Source: Nymphaea colorata
Taxonomy: Eukaryota > Streptophyta > Magnoliopsida > Nymphaeales > Nymphaeaceae
Direction: 5' to 3'
NCBI RefSeq assembly: GCF_008831285.2
Contig: NC_045138.2
Location: forward strand, 13,528,571-13,592,570
DNA length: 64,000 bases
The first letter of the stretch is position 1, and each line of letters opens with the position of its first letter. This document shows, piece after piece, positions 26,601-50,600 of the stretch. The position numbers were made by a program, and so were the translations under genes. Under the pieces are notes generated by a model, which saw only the letters and a list, made by a program, of their open reading frames with translations, was not told the origin of the DNA and did no database searches.

Positions 26601-29600
26601 CTGCTCATTGGTGATAAGCAATTCCTTATTGGACAGCCTTAAAGCTTATAACAATGTCATAAACAATATACAGTAGATATCCTCAAGAAGCTTCCAGTCT
26701 AAGTCATATGGACTTGCCAAAACAGTCGCCACACCTGAGTCATCGCTGCATGTGCAGCAGCTGACAATTTGATTTCATTTTTGTGGAATCATTGTTACTG
26801 ATAGTTTGTTAATCATTCATTTGTCACTTGTGGGCGATTTTGTACATATACACATACACAAACTTGCCGCAACCCCACCTATGTTTTTGAACAATGTTGC
26901 ACCTGCAATTCGTACCTGTGTGACATATCTTCTGAACAGAAATATTCACCAGCTTGAGATTACAAACACATTCCCAGTGTCTTTGATAGGAAACTATTAA
27001 AAAAAAGAAACCTACCACGAGAGTAGAAAACATTTAAAGTTAACTTAAAGAGAGCTTGCAAGTTAAATCATTCAACATAGTGTAAAAGCATTAACTTTTT
27101 GTTTCAAAGTTCAGAGAAGATGAAGCTAAGCTTGTATATCCATTCAACAAAGTTGCACGTCTAACCAAGTTTTCCCAGGTGTAAATTAGAATATATAGCT
27201 TTTATCAGATATGTATACCCCTTATTACTCATGGCAAACTTCAAAATTTAGCAAAATATGGTTACATTCAGTTAATTATTAACAGACACAGAGCTTTAGC
27301 CTCCCACTCAAGATTGTTAATGAAAATGAGTTCAGCAACTGCAAAGACCAAAAAGAACAACTTCTCTACCATGTAACTGTTCTTGCAAGCAGAAGATCTT
27401 TATCACAGAACACCAAGATCTAGAAAATGAACATAATGACAAGGTATGTCACAGGAGGTGCAAGTACTAGTTCGCCTAGCCAGCCTAACCGCCCTTGTGT
27501 CCCAGATTGTGTCCGGATCAAATCCAGGAAATGGTCCCTTTTGTTTTAAAATGGCTTTTGGTTCCCAACTTCTTGAATCTAAAAGGGCCTTAGTTTACAA
27601 TTCTCTCTTTGTTCTTCTCCTATCTCAAACACTGATGCCCACCTGCGCCAATCTCCAGCAATCAGCAGCAACCTTCTGGCATGGTTGTTTTTTATTTTTC
27701 CCTTTTTCTTTATCTTTTTCACTTTTATGCTCAATATAAGATCTTTTACTGCCCCAACTAAAACTTTTTCACTTTTATGCTCAATATAAGATCTTTTACT
27801 GCCCCAACTAAAAGTTTTCTCTTCAATAGAAAAACTTAATACATTGTTTCTTTTCTTCTCTTTCATATCTATCATTGCTTTTTATAAGTTTTACACTTAC
27901 GGCTTAGTATTTCTTATTTTTCTTTTTTTGAGGGAAAATTTATGGGTATGCAGCCCAATCATTGTGTGATGAGTGATCAATGCAGAGGAATGTTCATGTG
28001 CTTACACAAATGCGTCACAAACACAAACTTAGCATTTATAATTTATGGACATGTAATAGAGCCTTTCTCTCTCTCATGGGCATGCACACTCCTCGACCCC
28101 TAACCCTCCCCCTCACCACATTAAAAAAATAAAAATAAAAGAATAAAATAAAATAAAATAAAGAAAACCATTTTCAAAAAAGCTATGTATATACACACAC
28201 ACACACACACGCACTGTCTGAAAAACATAAATGAGGCATGAAAAAGCTTGTTGATGCACTGGGCTCTTTACTGAACAACTTTTTGAGGTGATAGAAAGAG
28301 GGAGGTTAGAGAATCACCTTTGCTCCAGGAGCCCATTCTCGATACGTTATTCCATCAGCACTGTAAAATCAAGAAAAAATTTGGAAAAATGAAAAGGCAT
28401 CTTATATGAGACAAATTATAATAAATTGCACATATTATGATGAAAATTTGCATCATACATATAGTGGAGAAGAGGTTCTAAAGAATACCATTGGAACATA
28501 AAAAGTAAATATGTTATGGTAAAATTTAGATGAGATAACAGGTCTCTGATGGGTAAGAAAATAAGAAACAATAGGACCATCAAAAGCTGGTCAAATGAGA
28601 TGTCATAGGCAAGCACACAAAATAATTTTAGAGAAAAATAACTGGAAGAGAAAGCCCAACTAGAAAGCAGATAACCAATGTCTAGGACAAGAACGGGTTG
28701 CAAACTTTTCATTTCACATCGCTTTTACAACAGCTCAACATCACTTTTCATCCACATGTTTCTCTGTAACCTAATAAATTACAAAAACTGACCAAAAAAA
28801 GTTTAGAAGCTTCAAATTTTTGCTGCAACTAAAACTGTGATAAATGTGAATGCATTCGTTATATTAACTATAAGATTTTAAGAAAAAGCATCCCACATAA
28901 AAAAATTCAAAACATAAGAGGTTCATATCTATACAGCTTGGGAAATGTTTCAACACAAAAATACTAGAATACACTTTCCACATTGTCAGTCAACTAATGG
29001 TTATAGAATACAGATACTGAAAGCCTGTGAACAAAGCAATAACTATTGAACAGTTATATTTTAAGGTTTCCTGCAAAACAAAAAAGGAACCCAAATCTGT
29101 TTAAGGAATTCAAACAGCTCACATTTAAGTTCAACCTAGTAAAGGTTTTAAGCTGTCATTGGATGGGAATTTCAAACACAATTATCAGATCACTTTGAAT
29201 AAGTAGGAAATCATGATTACTACAAATAGGAAGCGGAATGCATCAGGAATCCCAATTCCCAAATATAAGCAAGTTCCAATCATTTGCATCTTGATTCCCA
29301 TGTAATTCCACTTTAAACTGGTCTTGGCAATTACTTATCCCTTGGTATATTTTTTCTTAAAGCGTTGCTTGCTTGTATAAATCTACCAAATGTTAACAAG
29401 TGAGCAAATCACTTTCTGCGAAGTTCCCTGAACAGCTCCCTGTTTCCACTTCCTGAATCATCCAAAAATTTTGAAATGACCACTTTCTGGTTCTCATTCC
29501 CATAGTGTCCCCAGTTCTTGCTCCTGCATTAGCAACCATTCACCACACCAAACCGTTGGCTGGATCTGATTATCACAGATTCGATTCAATCATTGTTAAT

Positions 29601-32600
29601 CCTTGTCTAATTTAGCTCTTACTACTTGGTAATAGTTGTGCATCTAGAAACAATTTTGATTGTCAACTCTGGTCAGACCCGTCCCAATTTTAAATTAATC
29701 TAGAAGAATGGGGATTGATGTCTAGATGATGGTCCAAATTTTATCCATGTACAGATCTGACGTTTTTGTTCTAAACATGGAATAGTTTATGCAAGTTTGA
29801 ATTGGTTTCTCATTCAATTACCAACCACATTTCATGTCAGTGTTGGATCAAAGTTTTGAATAGAAAAAATTCACCCAATCTGAACATATTTTTGCCTAAT
29901 CCAGACTCATGTACCAATCTGTTTTAGCCCATATCCAGCTAATAATCTCCCTGTACTGAAATGACCAGAAGTCCAATCGAATATGGAAATATAAGAAATC
30001 TATATTTTGACTGGGGACAGATGGTATTTGGATGCAGTCCAAGTTGTATTTCTAATTGAATCAACATATGAAAGCTTTAGACCTGATTATGAACCAAAAT
30101 TTAATTAATTGTTTGGCTCTGCTCTGAAGAAAAACCAGGCTGTCCAGGTTCCAATCCGATCATAGAATAAAATAACTGAGAACTTGGTTACTGGAAGTGC
30201 CACTAAATTCGCCAAAATAAAACAAGGTTGTGGAGGCATGCATTTTTCTCATTCCAGTTGGGAAAAGGACAAACTGAACAAAATTCACTTCTGCCAGCTG
30301 AAAAGCATCAATTGTGATATGCAAAATGAAACTAATAAAATGTAGGACAAACAAGCACACCATGAGTCATACCTACGATTAAAGCCAAATTTCTCATATC
30401 CACGAGAAAATGCATCCAAGCCCCCCTCATTTTGATCAATAAGATGCCTCATTCTCCTATAATGTGAATACCTGCACGGGTAATGCAATTAAGCATGACA
30501 AAAGAAAATAAAAATTTATGAAAGAAACACAGATGAGAAACCGTTCATTTTCTCAATACCAAGAAAAAGTAATAGGAGATGTAGTTCTCCCAACATGATA
30601 GTAACAGTGGATAATCCTTACCTTGAAAGAGCTATGAAAATCAGAATCATGGTTCTCCTGAAGAACAGTGTATGTATAGAATTTGCCTAATTATTTCAAG
30701 CAATTTGCATATTTTACATAAAAACAAGCAGCCAGATGAGAATATAAATGCAAATAACAGTGAACACGAGAATAAAGAAACAAGTATGAAGTATGTCTTC
30801 ATGACATAACCATTATATGCTGGAACAGTGTGATAGTCGTGGGCAAGAAGGATACAAATGTACTACTGCAAGGTTGGGGTTCTTAAAGAAAAGTAGTTAA
30901 TGAACAAGGGGCTCGGTATAAACTTATAGAAGGACGGTGACCCTCACTATGATGGGATTAATGAAGGCTTTCCCTCAGAGTTAAGAGGGTTTACCTTAAT
31001 TTGGATTAGGGTCAGGGTGGGTTGAGTGTGTTCTTTTACTTTTTCAGAAACATGCATGTGCTTACTATCCAAAATCAGAACAGAAAGTTAAAAATGAGAT
31101 GCACACAGCTTGGGCTTCAAGATTATAAGGTAAAGAATATTACCTATAATCAAGATGCGTTCGGTGAGCTTTTAAAAGTGGATCTATTTCATAGATCCTC
31201 TGGCCGTTACTACAAGGAGGTATAGACCTGCGTTCAGTTTTCCAAGCAGCATCATTCTTTGTTGATTGCTCCATATTTTCCTCAATTACCTATAAAAGAG
31301 AGAAAAAAACATGGTCAAGATGCTCCCAAAAATAAGTCTAGGTCTACAAATAACAAGCTCTAATGGGTCAACCAGGTTCATGTAGAGCTTTTAATCACTG
31401 AAGTGACATAGAACCATTAATGATATCTCACGAAAAGTATGGACTTAAGGGTAGTGGTAGGTCAAATGCATGAGAAGTCTTTCCCTTTAGAGTAATTATG
31501 CCAAAATAAAATCAACAGGAGACCAACGAAGCACAGCCAAATATCCCCACAATTTCCATACGGCAGGTGTGCTTTTTACTTCCAATATGAGCAGGATGAA
31601 CAAAAAAAAAATACTACACAAAATGTGTGTAGTTACATTACAGCTTTGATCCATGAAATTCATTGCTCGCAATCAGAAAAAAACAAACAAACAAACAAAC
31701 AAACTTTCTTGCATATCTAAGATAGAACGAGTTCTTCTTGCAAAATATTCCATAAACAAATTATTGCAACATGAAGCTACCGCTTAATTGTCTAAATACA
31801 CTATAGTACAAGACAAAGTAACAATTGACTAGACAACAATGGTAGCCTTTTTTTGAGCCTAAAATTGCACAATGTTGACATAAATCATAACATAATCAAT
31901 ATATCCAGAACTACATCTTCTAGAAAACGTGCCTTCACGAGAACAAAGAAAAGAAAAAAGTTACAGCTGTAATTTACTTAACCATTTTAAAATGCAAAAA
32001 AAACTGGCTTTTGGTATAAATAATCGTAAAATTAGTTTGAATTTGTATATCCATGAAGCATAGAAAAGATACCAAACAGCATATGAAGATCAATTGCTCC
32101 AACAGACCTGAACTTTCTCCGTTTGAACTTGGGGGACATCCTCAGTATCAACTTGGGGTACATCATCAGTGTCAACTTGGGGGACATCCTCATTATCAAC
32201 TTGGGGGCTCTCCTCAGTAGATGTTGAAATGTCACTCTGGATTCCGGGAACAAGAACATTATCTGAAGTATTCATGGTTGAAGCTGTTGACTCTGTATCG
32301 TAAGATGAAGTCCTCCTGGAAGATAACCTCCTTATAGAAGAAACCTGATGGGCTGTTACAATGGAAAGTATTTAACTGCACAATGTTTGAAACTTTGAAC
32401 TACTACTTAAAAAAGGTAAGGAGGATATGGCACTTTAAGGCTTAAGGACTGTAGCTTAATTGACAACTACCCTATGTTGTCATCTCTGTTTTATCTCTGG
32501 CTTTGCAGCACAAAACCATGCATGTTTTTGCTTACCTTTGTATTAAACACTCAATAATGTCCACATCCGTCAATGATGAAAGTAAAAAACAACAACATCT

Positions 32601-33554
32601 AAGGCAACTAGCAAGGAAAAGAACCTCATATTTATATTGTACCTACTACTTACTTTTATGTCCCTATCTTCCCGGTTTTATCATACTTGAATGTACAAAA
32701 TACCATACAATTTTCTTGTTTGGGTCATTTTCTTACATGTCATGTTCATGCTACTGGTTGCCGGAGGCTCTTAACGTGTTCAAACGTTTGGGGCATGTCT
32801 GACGCAGATGTCTAACGCAGACACAGGAAATCCATAAAACAAGCGCTTCGTAAACGGATGCGAGACGTATCTTCGGTCATCGCGAAAAAAGGAAATCCCG
32901 CGAAATTAAAAGCATAAGCTGAGGTGTCTCATATACATTGTGTCGCTTTTGCCATTCAACTCCATGAAAAACATAATTTAATACACCATGCAACACGCGC
33001 AAAATAAGGTGTGGCACAATTCTAACCACAAAAGGTGACACTTCGTTCCAGACACCGGCTGTACAACAGAGTGAGTCCAGAGTTCAAGAAGGAGAGAGAA
33101 GAAAAGAGAACAAAGAAAGAGCAACATCTTGACGTTTACGAGACCTTTGAACTAGAAGATCGCGCTGCGAAGACTTGAAGGCGCACTAAAACATTCGAAA
33201 AAAGAACTCCGGACAACGTGAAAAATAACACGCTACACTGCTCCCCGGTGTCGCCAAAAAACTCGAGATCGGCTATCCAAACCGGAAAACTCAAAGAAAT
33301 CGAACATTGTGTCATACTTCAAAGATCAAGAAAGTCATCCAAACAAATGCAATAAGCTGTCTCCACTTTTATCCTTTCATGAACGAAAGACCAGAACGAA
33401 GAAGTAAGGAAGGGAGGGAAAGAAACTCACGCGCAGGGTGCTTCTGAAAGCAAAGATAACGAAGAGAAGGCGTCCTTCTCTCGCCGCCCGGTCTCGACCC
33501 GAAGCCCTCGCCCACACCGAGAGGCACGCGCATGCCCGCAAGCGTCCACGCCAT
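14694..33554 (-). CDS. SBE2: Starch branching enzyme, class II (22 exons, 835 aa)
   Basis: A plastid glucan branching enzyme. It cuts alpha-1,4 chains and rejoins them as alpha-1,6 branches in amylopectin. Exons, 5' to 3': 33554-33431, 32352-32108, 31289-31144, 30471-30373, 28360-28318, 26284-26225, 25753-25673, 24828-24712, 24633-24550, 23289-23168, 22686-22567, 20867-20738, 20637-20527, 19676-19548, 19094-18988, 18382-18238, 17660-17513, 17436-17336, 16880-16803, 16049-15894, 14966-14892, 14780-14694. They total 2508 nt, every junction in phase. Residues 1-57 resemble a transit peptide (MAWTLAGM start). An acidic repeat occupies 91-122. The CBM48-like part spans about 200-305 ([16 protein letters not shown]). 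The GH13 core carries DIVHSHAS (D410, H415), GFRFDGV (nucleophile D481), VGED (acid/base E536) and ESHDQ (H604, D605). The C-terminal beta domain ends YALSED. The class II exon count and acidic N-terminus separate it from SBE1. One oddity is FFAVSSR where the family usually has FAPSSR. Confidence 0.95.
23430..23710. repeat. Repeat-like insertion in SBE intron 9-10 region
   Basis: Within the SBE intron between exons 9 and 10, two near-identical words built on TTGTGAGRAATCTTGTG lie about 67 bases apart (near 23470 and 23537). They are followed by AGCTAAGTGGTTAAGTATC, which resembles the head of a tRNA-derived repeat. The segment looks imported rather than ordinary intron, but I could not find termini. 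Confidence 0.3.
25449..25474. repeat. C-run followed by A-run in an SBE intron
   Basis: A homopolymer run of about a dozen C bases is directly followed by a run of about a dozen A bases, inside the intron between SBE exons 7 and 8. Exact run lengths in such tracts are prone to sequencing error. Confidence 0.7.
27440..27635 (+). mobile_element. Possible SINE-like fragment next to the duplication breakpoint
   Basis: GATCAAATCC at 27516-27525 is a perfect polymerase III B box. The preceding CCTAGCCAGCCTAACC is only a weak A box. The segment ends where similarity to copy B begins (about 27636). It is present at the copy A left edge and absent at the copy B edge, so it lies outside the duplicated unit. 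Confidence 0.3.
27714..27813. repeat. 50-bp perfect tandem duplication in SBE intron 5
   Basis: The units 27714-27763 and 27764-27813 are identical, each from CTTTTTCACT to CCAACTAAAA. Copy B (near 41075-41120) has only one unit. The extra unit therefore arose in copy A, or was lost from copy B, after the large duplication. Confidence 0.85.
28190..28212. repeat. AC microsatellite in SBE intron 5
   Basis: A CA-repeat run of about ten units lies 100 bases downstream of SBE exon 5 in transcript order. The equivalent position in copy B (about 41455-41472) has an interrupted, shorter form. Confidence 0.7.
31678..31703. repeat. AAAC tetranucleotide microsatellite in SBE intron 2
   Basis: About six AAAC units occur inside the intron between SBE exons 2 and 3. 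No other feature is associated with them. Confidence 0.75.
32111..32206 (-). repeat. Coding 24-bp minisatellite in SBE exon 2
   Basis: Four 8-residue units encode [24 protein letters not shown] and PQVQTEKV (residues 91-122). They lie between the transit peptide and the CBM48 region, where class II enzymes carry a variable acidic segment. The array adds an acidic, probably disordered tract without shifting the frame. Confidence 0.9.
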
Positions 33555-35867
33555 CGCCGATCCCAGCAGATAAAACAAGAAAGCAGGATAAATGAACCAG
33601 AAACAAAATCGAAGAAACTCTTCCGGGAGGGGAAGCCGTAAAGCGGGAGGGAATGAGAAGTTGAGGAAATTCCCGGAAATTGCGTGAATATCATAAAAAC
33701 AGGAGGAGGAAAGAGACTCTTCTCGAGGAGCGTCGCCTCGTCCGCTTCTGCAGGATCGGCTCCCTCTCGCCCTCCCTCTCTCTCTCTCGGCTACGTTAAA
33801 ACGTTAAGGGGGGAAACCGCACCGAGGAGAAGCCAGACGTTTGCGGGACCCAGCTGGGCCCACCACCACCTCCGGAGCTTTACAAACCGCTGCCACTTTC
33901 TTCTAAAACTTTTTCCAATTGCGGCACACTCGGAAGAGGAAGAAAGGACACGAAGGCTTTTCGCCATACATCGGCTTGTATTGAACGCAAATATTAAGAA
34001 AATTACCCGCTTACCAGTAGGACATTGGTGTAAATGGCTTTGATCTGTGAGGGCTCCAGCGGGAAACGGGTTCTTTCAGTTTCTTATAAATTTTTTTGGG
34101 GGGGGGGGATGAAAAAGCTTTCGGTCTTTTTGGGTTGCTTGCGTGGCAGCTGGAGGCCACGTGTTCGGATGAAGAACGGGTGGCCTCCGTGACGGGGGAT
34201 TGGTTCGGGAATTCCCGTAAGCCCTCTCGCTTCAACAAAATATCTCTAATGCCACCGGACCCGGATTCCAAGTAATTTTCATTTTCCCGTGTCTATTAAA
34301 CGGGGTTTACCCTTTTACTTGTGTTACGTTTTAAGTTTACAAATCACTTGAATCAACTTTAATAAAAAAACATGTTTATTGACGATAAGTAACATTCATT
34401 TAACATTTTCCTAAGCAATATACTATACTTCGATGCTGCTGCACAAAATAGTCCTCGTTCTTGACCGACGGTACATGGCATATATAAAATATTTAAAATA
34501 CCACGGCCCCACTGGCCTAGGTCCTACATTTCAAGCTACGTCTTCACCCTCATGTATGTCTTCTTTGCACTCGACCATGTCTCACTCAACTAGACGGGAA
34601 AGGAGAGTTCAATTCTTGTCTAAATTGTAAAGTGGATCGCCCGGCAACACTCTTTGGCAACCTCTTTGGTTATCAATTTCTATTCGGTCTCAAAAACCAC
34701 CATCATTTCAAAAATTCAAACTAATAACGCAACTTCACCACTGCTGCCTAATTAAAATATGAGGGGCCGAATCGGAACGGGGGCGTTCGGATTGGATATG
34801 ACCTGAAGCAACATCCCGCTCAAGGAAGTGGCAGATGGCGACTCTCCCCCACCATCACCATGGAAAAGGATGCGAATATGCTGCTTTCTCATAAGTAGTA
34901 AGCAGGAGGAGTATAGTATAGGGTGTCCGGTTTTGGACGCAGCAATAAAAGACGTCCGCCTTTTCGAGGGAGGGGGCCCGGACCGGACCAACCTCTGCCC
35001 AGATATTTTTAATATAACTAACGGGGGACCCGCTCTTTTTGGACTCTCTTGAATGCCGAACCCGTTTTCTTCTAAAACTGGGGAAAGCCAGTACCCCCGC
35101 CCGCAAATGACCGCTACAAAAAAATCGAGCGGGCCCCACAGGTCACAGGCTCCGGCTCCACTTTACTCACGTCTTTCATGGGCCCCATCGGTGGGCCCAC
35201 ATTCGCCTCGCACTCGCACACCGACCGTCCGTTCAAACCCACTGCGGACCCCACCCCACGTGCATGTCCAGCAAAGCAGAGTCATCCCCCCCCCCCCATT
35301 TTTACGCTCTTTTGACGAATTCATTTCTACTATTGCATGACGATACTTTTCTGTCCACAGGTTCAAATAATGTTACGAAATTTTATCAAGTTTAAGTTGT
35401 TCTGATCGTTTGCAAGGTGTTATGCATATGTTTAATTTTTTTTTGAAAACCAAAATGGGATTGTTATTAGTATTTGCCTTGTTAAATAGTGGCCAGTTTC
35501 ACGCATACCACCAATAAATAAAATAAATGGATTGAACGATTCATAATCGATAAGCACCTTGGATGTCGTGTTAACTCTTGATCTTTTAAAACATGTTTCT
35601 GGAGCTCATTGTTGGATCTGTTCCGGTTATGACCGTGGTGTCGTCAATATCTGCTTGCTTTTAACAAAGTATTAGTGAGGCAACATCAGTCACTCTCACG
35701 ATCATATATACTTGGAGAAGGAACAGAATAAGTCGATCGAAAACAAAATGGGAAAGTAAGGAACAGAACAGAAGATGAAGCAGAGGTTGCAATAACTTTG
35801 TCGTTACATACATAGAGAGAATGGGAGAAATTTTTTTACATCGTATCGTCCTCCATATTTGCCTCTC
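33555..35867 (-). promoter_or_regulatory. SBE upstream region, between SBE and the dead transporter copy
   Basis: This 2.3-kb spacer should hold the SBE leader and promoter, read leftward. The first few hundred bases are GC-richer, with a GAGAGA tract on the minus strand (about 33772-33790). A TATA-like TTTATAAG on the minus strand lies near 34085-34092. A GC-rich block spans about 34960-35320. From about 34804 onward, parts match the copy B spacer (near 43277), showing that the duplicated unit included it. No gene is supported. Confidence 0.4.
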
Positions 35868-38800
35868 TCACCTTTTCTGAAAGTTAAGATGCCTGATGGC
35901 AAAGGCAAAGATGCCAAGGAAGAGGACAACGAAGGCTACATGAACCCCAGCGACCGCACCCAAGAAGCTCTCTTTGTAGCCCAATGAATCGTTCAGGAAC
36001 TGCTTGACTGTGGTGGTGCCCTGTCCTGGAACCGCGATTGGACTGACCAGGTCCCCCACCTGAGAGGTGATAAGCCCATAGAGGGTCCACGCGACGGGGG
36101 AAAGCCAGTAGTACCATCTCCACCAAATTGGAATAAGCTGCCAAAGCACAAGAACAGGAGTCAAGCCTCTGCAGAAGACATCAAGTTTTGGTATTTCTAG
36201 TCATTTTGTTTCTCAAGGGAACAACTCTTTTGTAAACCCTTTGCCATTGGAATGAAGAACGAAAGCACTTACTGGTCGAGCAATGAGAAAGCCGGAGAAG
36301 AGATTCCAAAAGTTGAGGAAGAATGAGTTGACAATGGCGCCTACGTGGTGGTTAGGGGTGAGAGCCACACCCATCATTCCGTAGATGGTGAAGTACACAA
36401 AGCACATGAACATGAAATAGATGAACCAAAACAACTTGCCAGTTTCCCAAGGGAAGCCAATCATGGAAAACAAAATCAAGCAGTAAACAACTGATTGTAC
36501 AAAAATATAGATGACCACCTGCAAAAGAGCACAATGAAGAGAGTAAACATTAGTTTAGGTCTTAAGGATTGTTCAAAGAAAATGGACAATTTTACTAAAA
36601 AAAATTGCAGAACGACGGTTGCCCTCAACAAAATGCGAGTTGAAATAAATGACGGGAAGAACGGAGGTATTGCCTCAACAAAAACAAAATTACAAACAAA
36701 ATGGAGGTAATAGACCATCATTCTTGCCCAAATGCTTTTCATTTAGATATTCTTGGCTCCTATATCAGGGCATATTATAAAAGGATGCTGCAGACTACAC
36801 ATTAATTCTTTAATAATGCTTAAGTAAACAAAAGCTACAAGCAAATTGCCGTACCTGGCCAACGGCATAAGCCAATGCAGAACACATCCCTGCTGCCTTT
36901 TTACGATACATAACTGACCGCTCAACACCTACGACAGGTTGAACTGTTATTGAATTGCTTGCACCAAGGAAGAAAACTGCTGAATACATTGCCCCAAGGA
37001 TATTCAATAGCTCTTGCTGGGTTGATCTGTTATCAAGAAAAAAAGAAGAAGAAGAAGAATTCAGCCTTTGTGCTTCAAACATAACCGACCTTTGCATAAT
37101 AGACGTGCAATTTGGATTTCGTTTTACATGTCAAGCACACAAAAACCATACTTAAGCAGTTCTCTATTATCTGTTCAACATCACGGCACCAAGAGCTACG
37201 AGAGGCTTTTTTAGCAACTTTTTCTTGGAAATCGTGCCAAATGGATGAATAAATTTGAAATCACCTGTATTTAATCTGGAAACTGAGGAATATTTAATTG
37301 ATAACCATAAGTTTGTGAGAGTGATGACCAAGAGACCCAGCATAAATTACTTGTCCACCTCTCTTCATCAACAGAAGCTGTAAGCAAGAAGTGAAGTCAT
37401 GATGGGCAAGGAAAAAGTTTGGACTAGTATAAAAATCAGTAAACATTATTACGAGCTCACCTCATCAAAAGCTTCAAAAATATCAATGCTGGGTTGATGG
37501 ATGGTACACACGACAGTTCTCCCTGTATCAACTGTGTTCCTTACTGTCCTCATAACAATGACAGCAGCTCTGGCATCTAAACCAGATGTGGGTTCGTCCA
37601 TGAAGATGATTGAGGGATTAGCAACCAACTCCACAGTTATAGTTAAACGCTTCCTTTGCTCCGTTGAGAGACCATCCACTCCAGGGAGGCCCACTAGAGC
37701 ATCCCTTATTGGGTTCAATTCAACTAGCTCCATAACTTCTTCAATAAACATTTACAAGTAGAGAAACATTAAGACATCAAAACATAAATGGTGAAGAAAT
37801 TAATAGTAATTTGACCGAGTTCTCATATAAAAAAGTTACCTTTCGTGTATCTGCCTTTACATCGTGAGAAAGGCGCAACCACGCAGAGTAGACCAAAGAC
37901 TCATAAACTGTAACATTGGGTGAATATATGTCATTCTGTTCACAATAACCGCTAACTCTTGCAAAAGTGTCCTGCTTCTTTGGATAGCCAGAAATTTTTA
38001 TGCTTCCCTCTATATATCCTCCTGTCTTTCTCCCTGCTAAGACATCCATTAAAGTGGTCTTTCCAGCACCACTTACACCCATCAAAGTGGTGAGAATTCC
38101 AGGTCTAAAAGAACCACTAACATCACGCAGCAATTGAAGCCGATTTTCTTCAACTCCTTGACTTTTCATTTCCTGGTGAAAAAGTAAGGTCATTAAAAAG
38201 GGCAACATGACATATAATGTTTGACGTGAACTCTAGTTGATTCAAGAAACCATGATCAATAAAATGGTCCTAAACTAACTTTGAGGTCGTCTTAGGCTAG
38301 ATACACTTGATGCGACTAATTCCTCCCTCGGTGGATGTGCATGTATGGATGGTAGAGAAGAGACCAAGAAAAGTAAAGAGTACAGTGGACATTAAATCTA
38401 TGCAAGTGCATGAAAGGCATGCTCGGTATGAGCTGACCAATGGACATGCATAATCACAACTTAGATATAGTCAAACTTGGAAGTGATCAAGTTGGTCCAC
38501 ATCTTTAGGATAGAACTAGCATTTGGAGAACCAAGGTTCAAAATGTCATTAAGCAGTGGAAAAGGGGAAAAGCTGCAAAATGCATGCTTCGAAATCCCTT
38601 AATGAATAAGGTAAAACATTGCTATCACATTGTTCTTCTTAGAAGTTATTTTGATTGCGGATGATTTCTAATTTTAGGTGTATGATTTTTTTTTGGTTGC
38701 CACAATTGATGTCATTGGGGCAAAACTAAAATTGGGAAGTGCATGAAAGTTTTCTTATAACAAAAGAACAATATCAACTTTTAGTGTACGTTTGGATGTT

Positions 38801-40165
38801 AGAAAATTGAAATTGCTGCCAAGAAAAGGGGATTCCAAGAATCAAGAGACTTACTGCAGGCATGTCCACATAGTACTTCACATGATCAAATACCAAAGAA
38901 AGTGGTTGGAAAGGTAAAACCTTTCCTTTCCTTGGAGCCATTGTTTCTGATCCTCGACTTCCATTGTGATTTCTGATTGACATGTCAATTCCTGGACAAA
39001 AAGAATGAAGAGACAGATTCGCCCACGAAAATAAGTTAGTACCTTAAACTTTCAAGAAGTTTAAAAAAAAAAAAAAAAGCTAGCAAAGCAAGAACTGTTG
39101 GAAAAAGTTTAACCTTCAGCAATTGTATTGGGAGATTGTGCAACAAAATTTGGTTGCCCTGACTTTTGTTTTCTGAGGGAACTTGACTTCTTTTTCATCC
39201 TCGTCAGAAAGTACTGATTGAGCACTTACAATAGCTGCATATAACAAATCCCGTAAGGTGGGACATGGTACTTAGTTTTAGAATGCAAGGATTTGTATAG
39301 AAATGTGTACTTACGGTTCAAATATTTGAGAGCAAGGACAAAGCATGCATTGAACAGAAGTGAGAACCCAATGAGGGCCCCAATGCATATCCAATACCAG
39401 TACTCTTCCAAAACATGCCTCTAGATTTAAGAATGGCCTTCCCAGTTGTAGAAGCATCAATGGTCGCATCTGTGTTGGGCTGCAATAATAATGCAAATTA
39501 CATCAACTTATAAAACTTAAGTTACCAACTCTTGAAATTGTATTTGATAACTGAGAAGAAAGAAGAAATATACATTGGATGTTGTCTAGGAAAATAGATG
39601 GACTAGTTAACAACGCCAAAACCCTAATTCCAGTTTGAGTGGAAGTGGATTCCTTAATCTACGCATATCACCACCATAGAAGAAGAGAAAAAGGGTAAGC
39701 CAGTTTTACCTTGCTCCATCTCTTATCAAGAAATTCATTGACGGCTATGGCATTTTGTCCATACATCATAGGTGATATCCAGTATCCCCATATCCACCAT
39801 GGCTTGATGTCATCTGAAGCACAAAAAACACACAAGCACAACCTTAGCACGTCGTGCCCTAACAATAGGTTGGATGATACTCTAATAGAAGCTCGGAGCA
39901 TGCCCTTTCTTTCTAACAAGTCATCAAAATTTTTGAGTGATTCTTTCGATCAAAAAGTTACACGGCATGCAAAAGAAGGATATGAACTACTAACCTTTAG
40001 AGTTCACAAAACCAGAAAGTGAAAAAACCACAAGCATTGCAAAGGTTCCGATTGTGTTGGCAATAACCATTGTCCTCCCCACAGCTGCAACGAACCGAAA
40101 TAGATAAAGTGCCATCTGATGGAAACATAGATATGCAAGGAATTGCCGGAAAGACCTAATAGAAC
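35868..40165 (-). pseudogene. Dead 3' half of the PDR-type ABCG transporter (duplication copy A)
   Basis: This is homologous to exons 8-20 of the intact gene at 44682-56305, without exons 1-7. Counterpart exons lie at about 35868-36137 (20), 36273-36518 (19), 36855-37026 (18), 37461-37751 (14), 37840-38172 (13), 38855-38991 (12), 39114-39234 (11), 39315-39479 (10), 39710-39813 (9) and about 40000-40156 (8). Lesions relative to the intact copy: a deletion of about 1.1 kb removes exons 16 and 17 and part of 15; the exon 14 acceptor AG has become AA; exon 10 has a 1-bp deletion after the GMF codons; exon 11 has an 8-bp deletion. Exon 19 has an in-frame loss of GAGATC. The second nucleotide-binding fold is still readable in exons 13 and 14. 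Exon 20 is identical to that of the intact gene. The right edge ends where the copia fragment begins. Confidence 0.92.
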
Positions 40166-40985
40166 AATTGGCTTAAGATATGGGATACCTTAAAAGAGTT
40201 GTATGGAGAACAAAATAATATGGCTCATATTTACGAAATTCAAATAGAAATTTCTAAGCTTACTATGGGAGATAAGCCTATTTAACTTTATCTTGGTCAG
40301 TTACGAAGTCTCTATGATGAACTTTTACAATACCGACCAGCCACTTCAGATCCCGATGTTTATAAACATAGATTTGAAGAAGATAAGATCTTCAAAGTTC
40401 TTGTTGGTCTAGCTGATGATTACGAAGCTGTCCGAGGTCAGATTTTGATGACGTCTCCTCTTCCAACATTTAACAATGTATGCCAGACCATACAAAGAGA
40501 GGTAGCTCGTTGAAAAGTCATGAACGTGTCTTCAAAAATTAATAGTGAAGAAAGTCTTGAGAAAATGGCGTGTTATGTTAACAATAAAAAGGGAGATTCC
40601 AAACTATCCAATGATAGCAACAATGGCGAGAGAATCCGAAGCAAATTCAAATGCAATGACTGCAAGAAGATTGGACACACACGTGATAGATGTTGGGAGT
40701 TAATTGGTCGTCCAACCAAAGAGAAATCATCATCCAAGCAATCATATCTCGCCAACTTTGTGACCAAGGAAGATATTGAAAAATTCTTTCAAAAATTTTC
40801 AAAGACGAATCTTGTTTCATCTCAACCAGTAGAATCTGAAGGTAAGAATCATGCTCTTATTTCTGTTTCTGCGGATTGTTGACTCTGGGGCCACCGATCG
40901 CATGACTAGAATTTTTTTTAAGATTACTAGTTTAGACAAAGAACAAAAACAGCATGTCTTTACTGTAGATGGGTCACCTATAGCA
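40166..40985 (+). mobile_element. Ty1/copia gag-protease fragment at the duplication junction
   Basis: Plus-strand translation gives a copia-type gag segment starting WDTLKELYG. It continues through a CCHC knuckle (CNDCKKIGHTRDRC, near 40651-40692) and a protease motif, DSGAT (near 40878). It is broken by a TAA near 40278 and a TGA near 40512. It lacks integrase, reverse transcriptase and both LTRs. Its edges coincide with the two duplication breakpoints: transporter intron 7 on the left, SBE intron 5 sequence on the right. Confidence 0.85.
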
Positions 40986-43274
40986 CTTGATGCCCACCTT
41001 CGCCAATCTCCAGCAATCAATGGTGACCTTCTGGCATGGTTGTTTTTTTATTTTTCCTTTTTTCTTTATCTTTTTCACTTTTATGCTCAATATAAGATCT
41101 TTTACTGCCCCAACAAAAAGTTTTCTCTTCAATAGAAAAACTTAATACATTGTTTCTTTTCTTTTCTTTAATATCTATCATTGCTTTTTATAAGTTTTAT
41201 ACTTACGGCTTAGTATTTCTTCTTTTTCTTTTTTTGAGGGAAAATTTATGGGTATACCGTCCAATCATTGTGTGATGAGAAGAAAGTTCATGTGCTTAGA
41301 CATATGCGTCACAAACACAAACTTAGCATTTATGATTTATGGACATGTAATAGAACCTTCCTCCCTCTCGTGGGCATGCACACTCCTCGACCCCTGACCC
41401 TCCCCCTCACCCCAGGAGGAAAAAAAAACACCATTTTCAGCAAAGCAACTTATACACACGTACACGCACACAGAGTCTGTTTTTACAAAAAATGAGGCAT
41501 GAAAAAGGTTGTTGATGTACTGGGCTCTATACTGAACAACTTTTTGAGGTGACAGAAAGAGGGAGGTTAGAGAATCACCTTTGCTCCTGGAGCACGTTCT
41601 CGATACATTATTCCATCTGCACTGTAAAATCAAGAAAAAAATTGGAAAAAGGAAAAGGCATCTTATATAAGAAAATCTTATAATTAATTGCACATATTAT
41701 GATGATGAAAATTTGCATCATACATATAGTGGAGAAGAGGTTCTAAAGAATACCATTGGAACATAAAAAGTAAATATGTTATGGTAAAATTTAGATGAAA
41801 TAACAGGTCTTTGATGGGTAAGAAAATAAGAAACAATAGGACCACCAAAAGATGGTCAAATGAGATGTCATTGGCAAGCACACAAAATAATTTTAGAAAA
41901 AAATAATTGGAAGAGAAAGCCCAACTAGAAAGCAGATAGCCAATGTCTAGGACTAGAACGGATTGCCAACTTTTCATTTCACTTCGCATTTACAACAGCT
42001 CAACATCACTTTTCATGCACATGTTTTTCTGTGACTTAATAAATTACAAAAACTGACCAAAAAAAGTTTAGATGCTTCAAATTTTTGCTACAACTAAAAC
42101 TGTGATAAATGTGAATGCATTCGTTATATTAACTATAAGATTTAAGAAAAAGCATCTGACATAAAAAAATTCAAAACATAAGAGGATCATATCTATACAG
42201 CCTGGGAATTGGAAATGTTTCAACACAAAAATACTAGAATACACTTTCCACATTGTCAGTCAACTAATGGTTATAGAATACAGATACTGAAAGCCTGTGA
42301 ACAAAGCAATAACTATTGAACAGTTATATTTTAAGGTTTCCTGCAAAACAAAAAAGGAACCCAAATCTGTTTAAGGAATTCAAACAGCTCACATTTAAGT
42401 TCAACCTAGTAAAGGTTTTAAGCTGTCATTGGATGGGAATTTCAAACACAATTATCAGATCACTTTGAATAAGTAGGAAATCATGATTACTACAAATAGG
42501 AAGCGGAATGCATCAGGAATCCCAATTCCCAAATATAAGCAAGTTCCAATCATTTGCATCTTGATTCCCATGTAATTCCACTTTAAACTGGTCTTGGCAA
42601 TTACTTATCCCTTGGTATATTTTTTCTTAAAGCGTTGCTTGCTTGTATAAATCTACCAAATGTTAACAAGTGAGCAAATCACTTTCTGCGAAGTTCCCTG
42701 AACAGCTCCCTGTTTCCACTTCCTGAATCATCCAAAAATTTTGAAATGACCACTTTCTGGTTCAAAGTTTTGAATGGAGAAAATTCACCCAATCTGAACA
42801 TATTTTGCCTAATCCAGACTCATGTACCGATCTGTTTTAGCCCATATCCAGCTAACAATCTCCCTGTACTGCAATGACCAGAAGTCCAATCGAATATGGA
42901 ACAATAAGAAATCTACATTTGGACTGGGGACAGATGGTATTTGGATGCATTCCAAGTTGCATTTCTAATTGAATCAACATATGAAAGCTCAGACCTGATT
43001 ATGACCCAAAATTTAATTGATTGTTGGACTTTGCGCTGAAGAAAAACCAGGCTGTCCAGGTTCCAATCCGATCATAGAATAAAATAACTGAGAACTTGGT
43101 TACTGGAAGTGCCACTAAATTCGCCAAACTCAAACAAGGTTGTGGGGGCATGCATTTTTCTCATTCCAGCTGGGAAAAGGACAAACTGAACAAAATTCAC
43201 TTCTGCCAGCTGAAAAGCATCAATTGTGATATGCAAAATGAAACTAATCAAATGTAGGACAAACAGGCACACCA
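40986..43274 (-). pseudogene. SBE fragment in duplication copy B: introns 4-5 and a decayed exon 5
   Basis: This matches 27636-30365 of the SBE gene. The exon 5 counterpart lies at about 41580-41622 and still has flanking AG and GT. Its translation has TYREWAPGA changed to MYRERAPGA, replacing the conserved Trp. Relative to copy A it lacks about 356 bp (equivalent to 29494-29849) and the second 50-bp unit near 27764. It stops just before the exon 4 donor. No other SBE exon is present here, so it cannot encode enzyme. Confidence 0.9.
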
Positions 43275-43572
43275 TGAAGCAACATCCCACTCAAGGAAGT
43301 GGCAGATGGCGACTCTCAACCTCCCCCACCATCAAAAGAAAGAAAGGGTGCTGATTTCTCATCTTTGTTTTTTAGATATTCTATAATCAGGAGGAGTATA
43401 TGGTGTCCGGTTTTGCGCGCAGATTTGAACCATCCTAACTTTATAATTGAGCATTAATAAAATGCATATTCTTGGAGATCAAACCCGGCCACATGAGAAA
43501 AAGAATGTAGACATGTTTCTATCTCCGTCTTATGCACTATCAATTGCTTCCAGCACACAAAACCGATAATTG

Positions 43573-43720
43573 ATCCTCGCTTACCATTTTACTGTCTTAT
43601 GTCAAAAGGTTGTTCCAATTTTCAGATGTTAATTATACCTGAGGTTCAAAAATGCATTTGTTTTCGGGTCCAGCACAGCTAAATGGATCTCGTTTTTGGT
43701 TCAAAATGGTAAGCGAGGAT
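43573..43720. repeat. Inverted repeat, 18-bp arms with 112-bp loop
   Basis: The left arm ATCCTCGCTTACCATTTT (43573-43590) and the right arm AAAATGGTAAGCGAGGAT (43703-43720) are exact reverse complements. They sit in the part of the copy B spacer that has no copy A counterpart. This is consistent with a small foldback insertion. Confidence 0.8.
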
Positions 43721-43844
43721 TGAATATTTCTCAAATTGCAGATCATGTATCAAATTGAAGAGTTTCAAATCGATTCTTGAACCGGACATGATATTTCTAC
43801 GAATACATTTCGATACTTTTCTGTCCACAGGTTCAAATAATGTT

Positions 43845-44225
43845 AAAGAAATTTTATCAAGTTGTTTTGATCGTTTGCAAAGTGTTACGCATATATTTTT
43901 TTGAAAACCAAAATGTGATTATTATTAGTATTTACCTTGTTAAATAGTAGCCAGTTTCAGGCGTACCACCATAAAATGGATTGGACGATTCATAATCGAT
44001 AAGGACCATGGATGTCGTGTTAACTCTTGATCTTTTTTCAAGTGTAAGTTGTTCTCATCGTTTGTAAGGTGTTATGCATATGTTTAATTTTTTGAAACCC
44101 AAAATGTGATTGTTATTAGTGTCTGCCTGGTTAACTTTCACGCATACCACCAATGAATAAAATGATTGAACGATTCATAATCGATAAGGACCTTGGATGT
44201 CGTGTTAACTCTTGATCTTTTTTCA
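43845..44225. repeat. Tandem duplication of about 187 bp in the copy B spacer
   Basis: Two diverged units begin near 43859 and 44046. Each contains AAGTTGTTYTSATCG, CGATTCATAATCGATAAGG and GATGTCGTGTTAACTC. Copy A (35385-35590) has one unit, so the duplication followed the large event or its second unit was lost from copy A. Confidence 0.75.
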
Positions 44226-44681
44226 ACTTAAAACATGTTTCTGGAACTCATTGATGGATCTGTTGCGGTTCTGAGCGTGGCGTCGTCAATATCTGCTCGC
44301 TTTTCGCAACAATGAGCACTGCTATAACGTGCCTTTTTGCTTAAATGTGCAGCGATGTTGTCATACTCTTAAAAAACAACAGTTTTCCCCATGATTCACC
44401 CAAATAATGCTGGGGAAGACGACACATTCGTCGGCCAAAAATAAGAACAAAAGCAATGGCCTTGGTGTGGTAAAATAACAAAGTATTAGTGACGCAATAT
44501 CAGTCACTCTTACGATCATATATACTTGGAGAAGGAACAGAATAAGCCAATTGAAAAAAAAAAAATGGAAAAGTAAAGAACAGAACCGAAGATGAAGCAG
44601 AGGTTGCAATAACTTTGTTGTTACATACATAGAGAATTGGAGAAATTTTTTACATCGTATCGTCCTCCATATTTGCCTCTC

Positions 44682-47600
44682 TCACCTTTTCTGAAAGTTA
44701 AGATGCCTGATGGCAAAGGCAAAGATGCCAAGGAAGAGGACAACGAAGGCTACATGAACCCCAGCGACCGCACCCAAGAAGCTCTCTTTGTAGCCCAATG
44801 AATCGTTCAGGAACTGCTTGACTGTGGTGGTGCCCTGTCCTGGAACCGCGATTGGACTGACCAGGTCCCCCACCTGAGAGGTGATAAGCCCATAGAGGGT
44901 CCACGCGACGGGGGAAAGCCAGTAGTACCATCTCCACCAAATTGGAATAAGCTGCCAAAGCACAAGAACAGGAGTCAAGCCTCTGCAGAAGACATCAAGT
45001 TTTGGTATTTCTAGTCATTTTGTTTCTCAAGGGAACAACTCTTTTGTAAACCCTTTGCCATTGGAATGAAGAACCTAAGCACTTACTGGTCGAGCAATGA
45101 GAAAGCCGGAGAAGAGATTCCAAAAGGTGAGGAAGAATGAGTTGACAATGGCGCCTATGTGGTGGTTAGGGGTGAGAGCCACACCCATCATTCCGTAGAC
45201 GGTGAAGTACACAAAGCACATGAACATGAAATAGATGAACCAAAACAACTTGCCAGCTTCCCAAGGGAAGCCAATCATGGAAAACAAAATCAAGCAGTAA
45301 ACAACTGATTGTACAAAAATATAGATGATCTCTATGACAACCTGCAAAACAGCACAATGAACAGAGTGAACATTAGTTTAGATCTTAAGAAAATGGAGAA
45401 TTTTACTAAAAAAATTTTGCAGAACGACAGTTGCCCTCAACAAAATGCGAGTTGAAATAAATGACGGGAAGAATGGAGGTATTGCCTCAACAAAATTACA
45501 AACAAAATGGAGGTAATAGGCCATCATTCTTGGCCAAATGCTTTTCATTTAGATATTCTTGGCTCCTATATCAGGGCATATTATAAAAGGATGCTGCAGA
45601 ATGGACATTAATTCTTTAATAGTGCTTAAGAAAACAAAAGCTACAAGCAAATTGCCGTACCTGGCCAACGGCATAAGCCAATGCAGAATACATCCCTGCT
45701 GCTTTTTCACGATACATAACTGATCGCTCAACACCTACGACAGGTTGAACTGTTATTGAATTGCTTGCACCAAGGAACAAAACTGCTGAATACATTGCCC
45801 CAAAGAGATTCAATAGCTCTTGCTGGGTTGATCTGTTATCAAGAAAAAAAGAAGAAGAAGAAGAATTCAGCCTTTGTGCTTCAAACATAACCGACCTTTG
45901 CATAATAGACGTGCAATTTGGATTTCGTTTTACATGTCAAGCACACAAAAACCATACTTAAGCAGTTCTCTATTATCTGTTCAACATCACTGCACCAAGA
46001 GCTACGAGAGGCTTTTTTAGCAGCTTTTTCTTAGAAATCGTGCCAAATGGATGAATAAATTTGAAATCACCTGTATTTAATCTGGAAACTAAGGAATATT
46101 TAATTGATAACCATAAGTTGGTCCATGGGACTACAATGAATAATTTGAGGAATTAAAAAATTTAAATATTTAGTGGTAATTGCAGCTTCCAGCAACAGTC
46201 TTGAAGCAATAACATATTTTATAGTTTATATTATTATTTTTCAAATCCATCCCACACGCATTTGATGCCAATGTTGATTGATACCATTACACAAGCTTTG
46301 CACTAATGAAAGCAAGACACCAGAAAGACTTGAAATAGCAAAGAGTCTTACGTTTTCTTTCCAGCTTTCCAAAATATGGTTCCGAAGAGAAGACCTATGA
46401 TAATTGTCATGAACATCCGGATCGCATTATATTGTGGGTTTCTCCAATAGGACCAGAATTGCTTCCAGAAGCATGCTTTGCATTGAACTAGAAAATTTTG
46501 AGAGTATTTAGTAGGGAAAAATAGATCCTTCGAACCCGGAACAGGAGCAGAGAATTCCTTAATAATCTCCTGATTTGTCCTGAACAAAAGTGAAAGTTGC
46601 ACGTGAAATTGGCAATCAATTAACAACAAAAAAATTGAGGAATATCTTGCTACTAAGCTTTACTTACATATACAGGGATGAATTGGCATAAACTTCGGCA
46701 AAATCCACACCAAGTTGAGCTTCAACTAAAGTTGTGGTAACTTCCAACATCCAAGTTGCAGGATTGTATCCTTCAGTAATCCTTGGCACTCCAGGTATTG
46801 ACTGCAACAATAGAACCATGCAATAACTCAAACGTTAGACTCTTAAGAATGAGTAGAATTTAGGATACATATTGGGTTGGATGCATGGAACTAAACGTCT
46901 CAAAAACCTAAGTAGGCATCTTGAGTCTCAAGGGGAATTCATATTTGTACAAACATAAACTTATCATTAGAATTATTTTATGCAGCCAGCTTAATTATTT
47001 TGAAATTTCATCCCAACTTTATGAATCAAACATCAATCACACTATAAATGTTTTGAGGACTATCCTAAATAAATAAACGATTACTCCATTGTTCAGACTA
47101 CCTTGGGCATGAAGAAAAGGATTTTAAAACCTAGTTTTTACAACTTAAAATTTCACCTGTTGATCCTTGAACTCTTGAAACTATATCACGAAATAAAAAA
47201 GCAGAAAAGCAAACCATCCCTCACCTCAAAGTATTGGACAAGTTTGTGAGAGTGATGACCAAGGGACCCCGCATAAATTACTTGTCCACCTCTCTTCATC
47301 AACAGAAGCTGTAAGCAAGAAGCGAAGTCATGATGGGCAAGGAAAAAGTTTGGACTAGTATAAAAATCAGTAAACATTATTACGAGCTCACCTCATCAAA
47401 AGCTTCAAAAATATCAATGCTGGGTTGATGGATGGTACACACGACAGTTCTCCCTGTATCAACTGTGTTCCTTACTGTCCTCATAACAATGGCAGCAGCT
47501 CTGGCATCTAAACCAGATGTGGGTTCGTCCATGAAGATAATTGAGGGATTAGCAACCAACTCCACAGCTATAGTTAAACGCTTCCTTTGCTCCGTTGAGA

Positions 47601-50600
47601 GACCATCCACTCCAGGGAGGCCCACTAGAGCATCCCTTATTGGGTTCAATTCAACTAGCTCCATAACTTCTTCAATAAACATCTACAAGTAGAGAAAAAT
47701 TAAGACATCAAAACATAAATGGTGAAAAAATTAATAGTAATTTGACCGAGTTCTCATATAAAAAAGTTACCTTTCGTGTATCTGCCTTTACATCGTGAGA
47801 AAGGCGCAACCACGCAGAGTAGACCAAAGATTCATAAACTGTAACATTGGGTGAATGTATGTCATTCTGTTCACAATAACCGCTAACTCGGGCAAAAGTG
47901 TCCTGCTTCTTTGGATAGCCAGAAATTTTTATGCTTCCCTCTATATATCCTCCTGTCTTTCTCCCTGCTAAGACATCCATTAAAGTGGTCTTTCCAGCAC
48001 CACTTACACCCATCAAAGCGGTGAGAATTCCAGGTCTAAAAGAACCACTAACATCACGCAGCAATTGAAGCCGATTTTCTTCAACTCCTTGACTTTTCAT
48101 TTCCTGGTGAAAAAGTAAGGTCATTAAAAAGGGCAACATGACATATAATGTTTGACGTGAACTCTAGTTGATTCAAGAAACCATGATCAATAAAATGGTC
48201 CTAAACTAACTTTGAGGTCGTCTTAGGCTAGATACACTTGATGTGACAAATTCCTCCCTCGGTGGATGTGCATGTATGGATGGTAGAGAAGAGACCAAGA
48301 AAAGTAAAGAGTACAGTGGACATTAAATCTATGCAAGTGCATGAAAGGCATGCTCGGTATGAGCTGACCAATGGACATGCATAATCACAACTTAGATATA
48401 GTCAAACTTGGAAGTGATCAAGTTGGTCCACATCTTTAGGATAGAACTAGCATTTGGAGAACCAAGGTTCAAAATGTCATTAAGCAGTGGAAAAGGGGAA
48501 AAGCTGCAAAATGCATGCTTCGAAATCCCTTAATGAATAAGGTAAAACATTGCTATCACTTTGTTCTTCTTAGAAGTTATTTTGATTGCGGATGATTTCT
48601 AATTTTAGGTGTATGATTTCTTTTTTGGTTGCCACAGTTAATGTCATTGGGGCAAAACTAAAATTGGGAAGCGCATGAAAATTTTCTTATAGCAAAAGAA
48701 CAATATCAACTTTTAGCGTATGTTTGGATGTTAGAAAATTGAAATTGCTGCCAAGAAAAGGGAATTCCAAGAATCAAGAGACTTACTGCAGGCATGTCCA
48801 CATAGTACTTCACATGATCAAAAACCAAAGAAAGTGGTTGGAAAGGTAAAACCATTCCTTTCTTTGGAGCCATTGTTTCTGATCCTCGACTTCCAGTGCG
48901 ATTTCTGATTGACATGTCAATTCCTAGACAAAAAGAACGAAGAGACAGATTCGCCCATGAAAATAAGTTAGTACCTTAAACTTTCAAGAAGTTAAAAAAA
49001 AGAAGTTAGCAACGCAAGAACTGTTGGAAAAAGTTTAACCTTCAGCAATTATGTTAGGAGATTGTGCAGCAAAATTTGATTGCCGTGACTTTTGTTTTCT
49101 GAGGGAACTTGACTTCTTGTCTTTTTTTCCATCCTCGTCAGAAAGTACTGATTGAGCACTTACAATAGCTGCATATAACAAATCCAGTAAGGTGGGACAT
49201 TGTACTTAGTTTATAGAATGAAAGGATTTGTATAGAAATGTGTACTTACGGTTCAAATATTTGAGAGCAAGGACAAAGCATACATTGAACAGAAGTGAGA
49301 ACCCAATGAGGGCCCCAATGCATATCCAATACCAGTACTCTTCCACAAACATGCCTCTAGATTTAAGAATGGCCTTCCCAATTGTAGGAGCATCAATGCT
49401 CGCATCTGTGTTGGGCTGTAATAATAATGCAAATTACATCAACTTATAAAACTTAAGTTACCAACTCTTGAAATTGTATTTGATAACCGACAAGAAAGAA
49501 GAAATATACATCGCATGTTGTCTAGAAAAATAGATGGACTAGTTAACAACGCCAAAACCCTGATTCCAGTTCGAGTGGAAGTGGATTCCTTAATCTACGC
49601 ATATCACCACCACCACAGAAGAAGAGAAACAAGGGTAAGCCAGTTTTACCTTGCTCCATCTCTTATCAAGAAATTCATTGACGGCTATGGCATTTTGTCC
49701 ATACATCATAGGTGATATCCAGTATCCCCATATCCACCATGGCTTGATGTCATCTGAAGCACAAAAAACACACGAGCACAACCTTAGCACGTCATGCCGT
49801 AACAATAGGTTGGATGATACTCTAATAGAAGCTTGGAGCATGTCCTTTCATTCTAACAAGTCATCAAAATTTTTGAGTAATTCTTTCGATCAAAAAATTA
49901 CATGGCATGCAAACGAGGGATATGAACTACTAACCTTTAGAGATCACAAAACCACCAAGTGCAAAAACCACAAGCAATGCAAAGGTTCCGATTGTGTTGG
50001 CAATAACCATTGTCCTCCCCACAGCTCCAAGGAACCGAAATAGAGGAAGTGCCATCTGATGGACACATAGATATGCAAGGAATTGCCGGAAAAACCTAAT
50101 AGAACAATTGGCATGAGTATATCAGGACAAAGTTACTAACCTGGAATATAGATAGTACTACCATCTCAAAAATAAGACTTCAAGCTTCACCTTTACCAAG
50201 TTTTAAATGAAAGAAAAATTAGAAATCAAATGTGAATGAGCAAGTAATCACCTGCTAGCAGAAGGAGCAAACCCAATTGTATAATACGTGAGAATGATCC
50301 ACAATGCTGACTCCAATACGGAGAGTGGGATCCTGAGAACGTAAATGGGCAAAGCAAATGCCCATGACGGATAGAACAGGAAATCCCTTTGTTTGTAAAA
50401 CACAGGGAGCCTGCTAACAGTCATTGCCAACTCTGCAAATCCATTGAACATCACATTAATCAAACTAAAGAATAGAGCTCCAAAGTACTTTCCACCATCT
50501 GCGATAGTTTCATGCTTCATCTTAATCCTCAGGAATACGGTCATGGTGATCAAAGACATGATAGTGATCTGGGTGGTCTTGAATATGTAAAGAAAAGAGT

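Follow-up and report, generated by a model that had tools for sequence, protein, structure and literature searches.

Partial tandem duplicates and duplicated pseudogenes of plants place a partial copy of a gene beside its source, and the copy has lost its function. In the human RCCX module (STK19-C4-CYP21-TNX), a tandem duplication has left two full outer genes, STK19 and TNXB, next to truncated inner fragments, STK19B and TNXA, and gene conversion takes place between the copies, as set out in the passages of PMC8362596 that treat the module. For Drosophila yakuba, the corresponding passages of Rogers, Shao and Thornton (2017; PMC5460883) report 76 chimeric genes among 1116 tandem duplications, with increased expression in 24 of the 76. 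Here we describe a locus in Nymphaea colorata at which a tandem duplication ends in two genes, one encoding a full-size PDR/ABCG transporter and the other a starch branching enzyme (SBE). The window, that is, the whole stretch of DNA that was analysed, comprises 64,000 bases of contig NC_045138.2, contains no N, and is plant-like DNA. We consider it likely that one tandem duplication cut both genes, that the outer copies stayed whole, that the inner hybrid between them decayed, and that gene conversion followed later. This type of event is already known from other genomes, and the locus is a clear example of it.

Among the systems above, human RCCX is the closest precedent. As far as the passages on RCCX go, both loci have a tandem duplication with its ends inside genes, truncated inner fragments, and full outer genes. 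They differ in that the human unit holds the whole genes C4 and CYP21 and varies in copy number among people, whereas no complete gene lies inside the unit described here. Gene conversion between copies is described in those passages for RCCX; at this locus it is putative, being suggested by two identical tracts whose length was reached in 0 of 5000 permutations and which could also be assembly patches. With the D. yakuba chimeras the locus shares a duplication that ends in two genes and fuses the 5' end of one gene with the 3' end of another, but the passages on the fly describe chimeras that are polymorphic in the population and in some cases expressed, whereas the hybrid here does not keep the reading frame, is missing its first four exons, and has decayed. 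Compared with ordinary plant partial duplicates, the locus differs in that one event cut two different genes reciprocally. The passages of a banana starch-gene paper (PMC5133247) report SBEII duplicates in banana and date palm and contain no description of this locus, and none of the titles listed in literature searches for the gene pair or the event concerns it.

The two genes and the two copies of the duplicated unit, called copy A and copy B, are as follows.

14694-33554, minus strand: SBE gene, class II-like, predicted to be intact (single open frame to TGA, and domains); 22 exons, 835 amino acids; copy A holds exons 1-5, and exons 6-22 lie beyond the unit.
44682-56305, minus strand: full-size plant PDR/ABCG transporter gene, predicted to be intact (single open frame, and domains); 20 exons, 1467 amino acids; copy B holds exons 8-20, and exons 1-7 lie beyond the unit.
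27631-40181, minus strand: copy A, 12.55 kb; part of SBE intron 5, SBE exons 5-1, an intergenic stretch, and an apparently dead transporter 3' half (self-BLAST and refined alignment, edges by eye).
40985-50122, minus strand: copy B, 9.14 kb; a relic of SBE exon 5 with flanking intron, and exons 20-8 of the apparently working transporter (self-BLAST and refined alignment).

Comparison of the window with itself by self-BLAST, with an E cut-off of 1e-10, returned 14 off-diagonal matches that were 100 bp or longer, of which 8 pair copy A with copy B; all 8 are direct and collinear, with identities of 85-96% by segment. Between 27 and 51 kb, where an earlier note on this DNA had proposed a dot-plot as a check, 4199 of the 4272 direct 16-mer matches fell into seven bins of A/B offset, lying at 8.4-8.8, 9.9, and 12.9-13.3 kb, and 6 matches were inverted; 20 shuffles in 3-base blocks yielded no direct 16-mer match. 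Since the self-matches are direct and collinear, and the 16-mers gather in offset bins with none in the shuffles, the duplication is real as sequence. The claim of that note that the duplication is tandem, with order and orientation preserved, is thus borne out by self-BLAST, refined alignment, and 16-mer offsets alike. The edges that it gave (27636-40165 and 40986-50110) were close to the refined ones, which are themselves approximate and uncertain by a few bases, and its size of 12.5 kb fits copy A but not copy B. The copies are head-to-tail direct repeats, separated by foreign sequence of about 0.8 kb. In the gene models, the ends of the unit lie in transporter intron 7 (50251-50096) and SBE intron 5 (28317-26285), exactly where they had been proposed to lie, so that each end falls in a different gene; both genes are on the minus strand, with the transporter upstream of the SBE.

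The gene models rest mainly on long open frames and complete domains. The transporter shows PDR_assoc, two ABC_tran, and two ABC2_membrane stretches in Pfam, the complete set of a full-size PDR (ABCG) protein, and the SBE shows CBM_48, Alpha-amylase, and Alpha-amylase_C, again the complete expected set. The SBE was identical at 593 of 744 positions to a class-II-like reference sequence of maize and at 386 of 616 to rice BEI, which suggests that it may belong to class II. Exon ends were chosen by script from GT (or GC) and AG sites together with resemblance to reference sequences; manual placement was used for transporter exons 10-12, 19, and 20 and for SBE exons 1-3, and for SBE intron 15 the second-ranked site pair was taken (217.5 versus 222.5), both pairs being in frame. 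No disabling change was seen in the gene models in the halves joined to outer exons, namely, the SBE half of copy A and the transporter half of copy B. A 185-bp tandem repeat (43859-44226), single in copy A, is present in copy B about 0.5 kb downstream of the stop codon of the working transporter.

The inner halves present a different picture, and the following features were assigned to them or to sequence that they lack.

35868-40155, minus strand: relic of transporter exons 8-20 in copy A, an apparently dead 3' half (copy A/copy B alignment).
41579-41621, minus strand: relic of SBE exon 5 in copy B, with a Thr-to-Met change and a change of the conserved REWAP Trp to Arg; splice sites remain (exon comparison).
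30366-34803, minus strand: 4.4-kb segment of copy A without counterpart in copy B, carrying SBE exons 1-4 and upstream sequence; TGA microhomology (3 bp) at the edge (refined alignment, edge by eye).
46123-47239, minus strand: 1.1-kb segment of copy B without counterpart in copy A, from the end of transporter exon 15 to exon 17; AAGTT microhomology (5 bp) at the edge (refined alignment, edge by eye).

In the transporter half of copy A, exon 10 has a 1-nt deletion whose shifted frame reaches a stop still inside exon 10, exon 11 has an 8-nt deletion, exon 14 has the acceptor AA instead of AG, the 1.1-kb deletion has taken exons 16-17 together with the end of exon 15, and exon 19 has a 9-nt deletion, which is in frame. 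Although 9 nt are missing from exons 10 and 11 taken together, this cannot rescue the frame, as the stop in exon 10 precedes exon 11. A second, functional half-transporter in copy A is ruled out by this stop, the loss of the exon 14 acceptor, the missing exons 16-17, and near-neutral substitutions. On the SBE side of copy B, exons 1-4 and upstream sequence were lost in the 4.4-kb deletion, and exon 5 is the only exon left; the REWAP Trp that it has lost is retained in rice BEI. Judged from these reading frames and lesions, the outer copies appear to be intact and the inner fragments disabled. This agrees with what the earlier note had proposed, namely, that copy A keeps the SBE exons (joined to the outer exons 6-22) and a dead transporter 3' half, that copy B completes the transporter (with the outer exons 1-7) and retains a dead SBE scrap, and that position decides which copy survives: disabling lesions were found in the inner halves only. 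With one predicted intact SBE and one predicted intact transporter in the gene models, its statement that a duplication cutting both genes can leave both intact also holds.

Substitutions in the transporter exons pointed the same way. Over 683 codons, with codons containing gaps or unalignable bases dropped, copies A and B differed by 38 nonsynonymous and 11 synonymous changes, giving a ratio of nonsynonymous to synonymous substitution rates (dN/dS) of 1.01 (bootstrap 0.54-2.33). Had both copies been constrained at 0.2, such an excess of nonsynonymous changes would have a P value of 1.6e-7. At the 36 amino-acid differences, the family residue was matched by copy B at 15, by copy A at 2, and by neither at 19, the yardstick being a reference sequence of the family. 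The transporter half of copy A thus appears to have evolved like a pseudogene.

At the junction between the copies lies the following sequence.

40182-40984: insert at the junction, about 0.8 kb, present once in the window.
40514-40879, plus strand: open reading frame in the junction insert with a CCHC knuckle; Pfam zf-C2H2_10 at E 0.0013, below the cut-off.

The insert was not part of the earlier description. All Pfam matches of its open reading frame were below threshold, and we take the CCHC knuckle to resemble copia-type gag. A search of the window for further copies of the insert, at E up to 1, returned just 17-, 18-, and 38-bp matches, the last of them within the insert itself, and none at 27.6 or 50.1 kb. 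The geometry at the junction is that of a hybrid gene, in which the 5' part of the SBE (exons 1-5, copy B) is joined in the same orientation to transporter exons 8-20 (copy A); SBE exon 5 is its sole 5' exon today. Read on intact exons, the hybrid is out of frame, the SBE intron being in phase 0 and the transporter intron in phase 2, and a stop follows 53 codons past SBE exon 5. Its promoter and first exons are gone today, copy B being without SBE exons 1-4 and upstream sequence. A surviving SBE-transporter fusion is ruled out, being out of frame and lacking exons 1-4.

We propose the following history. The ancestral pair would have consisted of the transporter followed by the SBE, both on one strand and with a spacing of about 2.3 kb as in copy A. 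A single tandem duplication whose breakpoints fell within transporter intron 7 and SBE intron 5 would have produced, in order, transporter exons 1-20, a hybrid of SBE exons 1-5 and transporter exons 8-20, and SBE exons 1-22, of which the middle product alone would have been new. Foreign, retroelement-like sequence of about 0.8 kb may have closed the joint, either by end joining or by template switching with captured filler. In the gene models the outer copies would have stayed spliced to the exons outside the unit, and both genes would have stayed whole because the other half of each lies outside it. The out-of-frame hybrid would have been free to decay through two microhomology-edged deletions, frameshifts, and splice-site loss, in an order that we infer; both of its parts presumably decayed because the hybrid could not make a transporter half. 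Later, the copies may have swapped short tracts by gene conversion, as the significant identical tracts suggest. The earlier note had described the genes as reciprocally pruned to one working copy each. That wording is probably wrong, because simple duplication of the unit never makes a second complete gene: with the present breakpoints as the original ones, one complete copy of each gene would have existed throughout, and it was the hybrid that decayed instead. A single stretch would thus record a duplication that cut two genes and left both whole, and a hybrid that was made out of frame and then dismantled.

Divergence between the copies was uneven, which, like the conversion-like tracts, is not mentioned in the earlier note. 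Outside the identical tracts listed below, noncoding divergence was about 5% (Jukes-Cantor distance 0.050-0.058), and differences per 250 aligned bases ranged from 0 to 37, more unevenly than in all 5000 of 5000 permutations. The divergence blocks omit A 30366-35669 with B 43278-44484, where alignment is poor or absent, and B 46123-47246; six bases (B 42758-42763) are counted in two alignment blocks, and an apparent 1-nt deletion in exon 15 marks the edge of an alignment block and no event, as do the 1-nt gaps at A 29493/B 47247 and at A 35670/B 50122. From the distance of 0.050, substitution rates of grass, banana, and palm would date the duplication to 3.8, 5.6, and 9.6 million years, figures that give an order of magnitude only.

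28939-29493: 555-bp substitution-free tract in SBE intron 4, common with copy B from about 42203; putative gene conversion (length reached in 0 of 5000 permutations).
35832-36260: 429-bp identical tract (430 sites in the permutation test), copy B partner to 45074; it spans most of intron 19, all of transporter exon 20, and the 3' flank, and is a candidate for gene conversion (reached in 0 of 5000 permutations).
38318-38628: 311-bp identical tract in transporter intron 12, a weaker conversion candidate (P = 0.0084 with all transporter-side sites; P = 0.0008 with noncoding sites only).

In the 555-bp tract, an indel of 6 bp lies two bases in from the left edge, and one of 350 bp marks the right edge; the latter is a segment present in copy A only (29494-29843), without a clear target-site duplication. 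Selection is unlikely to lie behind this tract, which is intronic. The 430-bp tract stops short of exon 19. On the sequence at hand, gene conversion that links working with dead segments would be the best explanation for the mosaic of divergence.

Several observations weigh against this account. The dN/dS of 1.01 slightly exceeds the 0.55-0.6 that would be expected if one copy were constrained and the other free (P = 0.046-0.079). All 40 introns have GT-AG ends (19 in the transporter, 21 in the SBE), but this is consistency and not independent proof, because GT-AG ends were what the exon finder looked for and several exons were positioned manually. The 430-bp tract includes exon 20, which raises the question of selection, and its noncoding part alone was not significant (P = 0.21). 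In addition, A 34942-35323 and B 43422-43793 occupy the same place and are of like size, yet they give no useful alignment though both flanks align. Finally, the identical tracts could be assembly patches. Such patches would also suit the idea that the whole arrangement is an assembly artefact, in which two haplotypes of a heterozygous plant were placed end to end, and tandem false duplications do occur in heterozygous assemblies. We nevertheless regard this as very improbable. Noncoding sequence outside the tracts diverges by about 5%, foreign sequence stands at the joint, disabling lesions were found in the dispensable halves only, and, taken as alleles, one haplotype would have a defective transporter and the other a defective SBE.

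A history with more steps would have a larger tandem duplication copy both genes whole, followed by a deletion, with one end in SBE intron 5 of copy B and the other in transporter intron 7 of copy A, that removed SBE exons 6-22 and transporter exons 1-7. The end state would be identical to that of the simple event, and the foreign 0.8-kb insert could be the scar of the deletion; if this were what happened, the genes would therefore really have been pruned from two working copies each. One more large event is needed, however, and we judge this course unlikely. No further copy of the outer part of either gene was found by self-comparison of the whole window or by exon searches of 34-58 kb and 14-45 kb, but its absence is no refutation, since the deletion predicts none. 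The position of a retroelement-like fragment exactly at the joint would also fit nonallelic homologous recombination between two copies of the junction element, dispersed so that each intron carried one. That mechanism is hardly credible here, because no copy of the element is present at either outer breakpoint when matches to the insert are taken up to an E of 1. We therefore retain a single tandem duplication through both genes, followed by decay of the hybrid, as the likely history.

A further step would be to regard the locus as a plant counterpart of RCCX, in which the dead inner halves still serve as templates for rewriting exons of the working genes, for example transporter exon 20, by gene conversion. 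We offer this tentatively and consider it possible, but doubtful. If it were true, a disabling lesion in a dead half, about 9 kb away, could be copied into the working transporter or SBE, and if the conversion tracts are real, the locus would be a plant case of dead fragments that could pass mutations on to a starch gene or to a transporter. For annotation, the transporter relic in copy A and the SBE relic in copy B could be miscalled as genes or could confuse short-read mapping.

Elsewhere in the window, an open frame at 7868-8281 (plus strand) carries a QLQ domain (PF08880; 27.0 bits versus a cut-off of 23.8), at which a simple six-frame pattern search found no WRC motif. An open frame at 9566-11572 (plus strand) encodes 669 amino acids without a Pfam match and contains about six tandem repeats of about 189 bp (9941-11061). 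A separate pair of direct repeats of 350 bp, at 3205-3553 and 3749-4100, is 92.7% identical.

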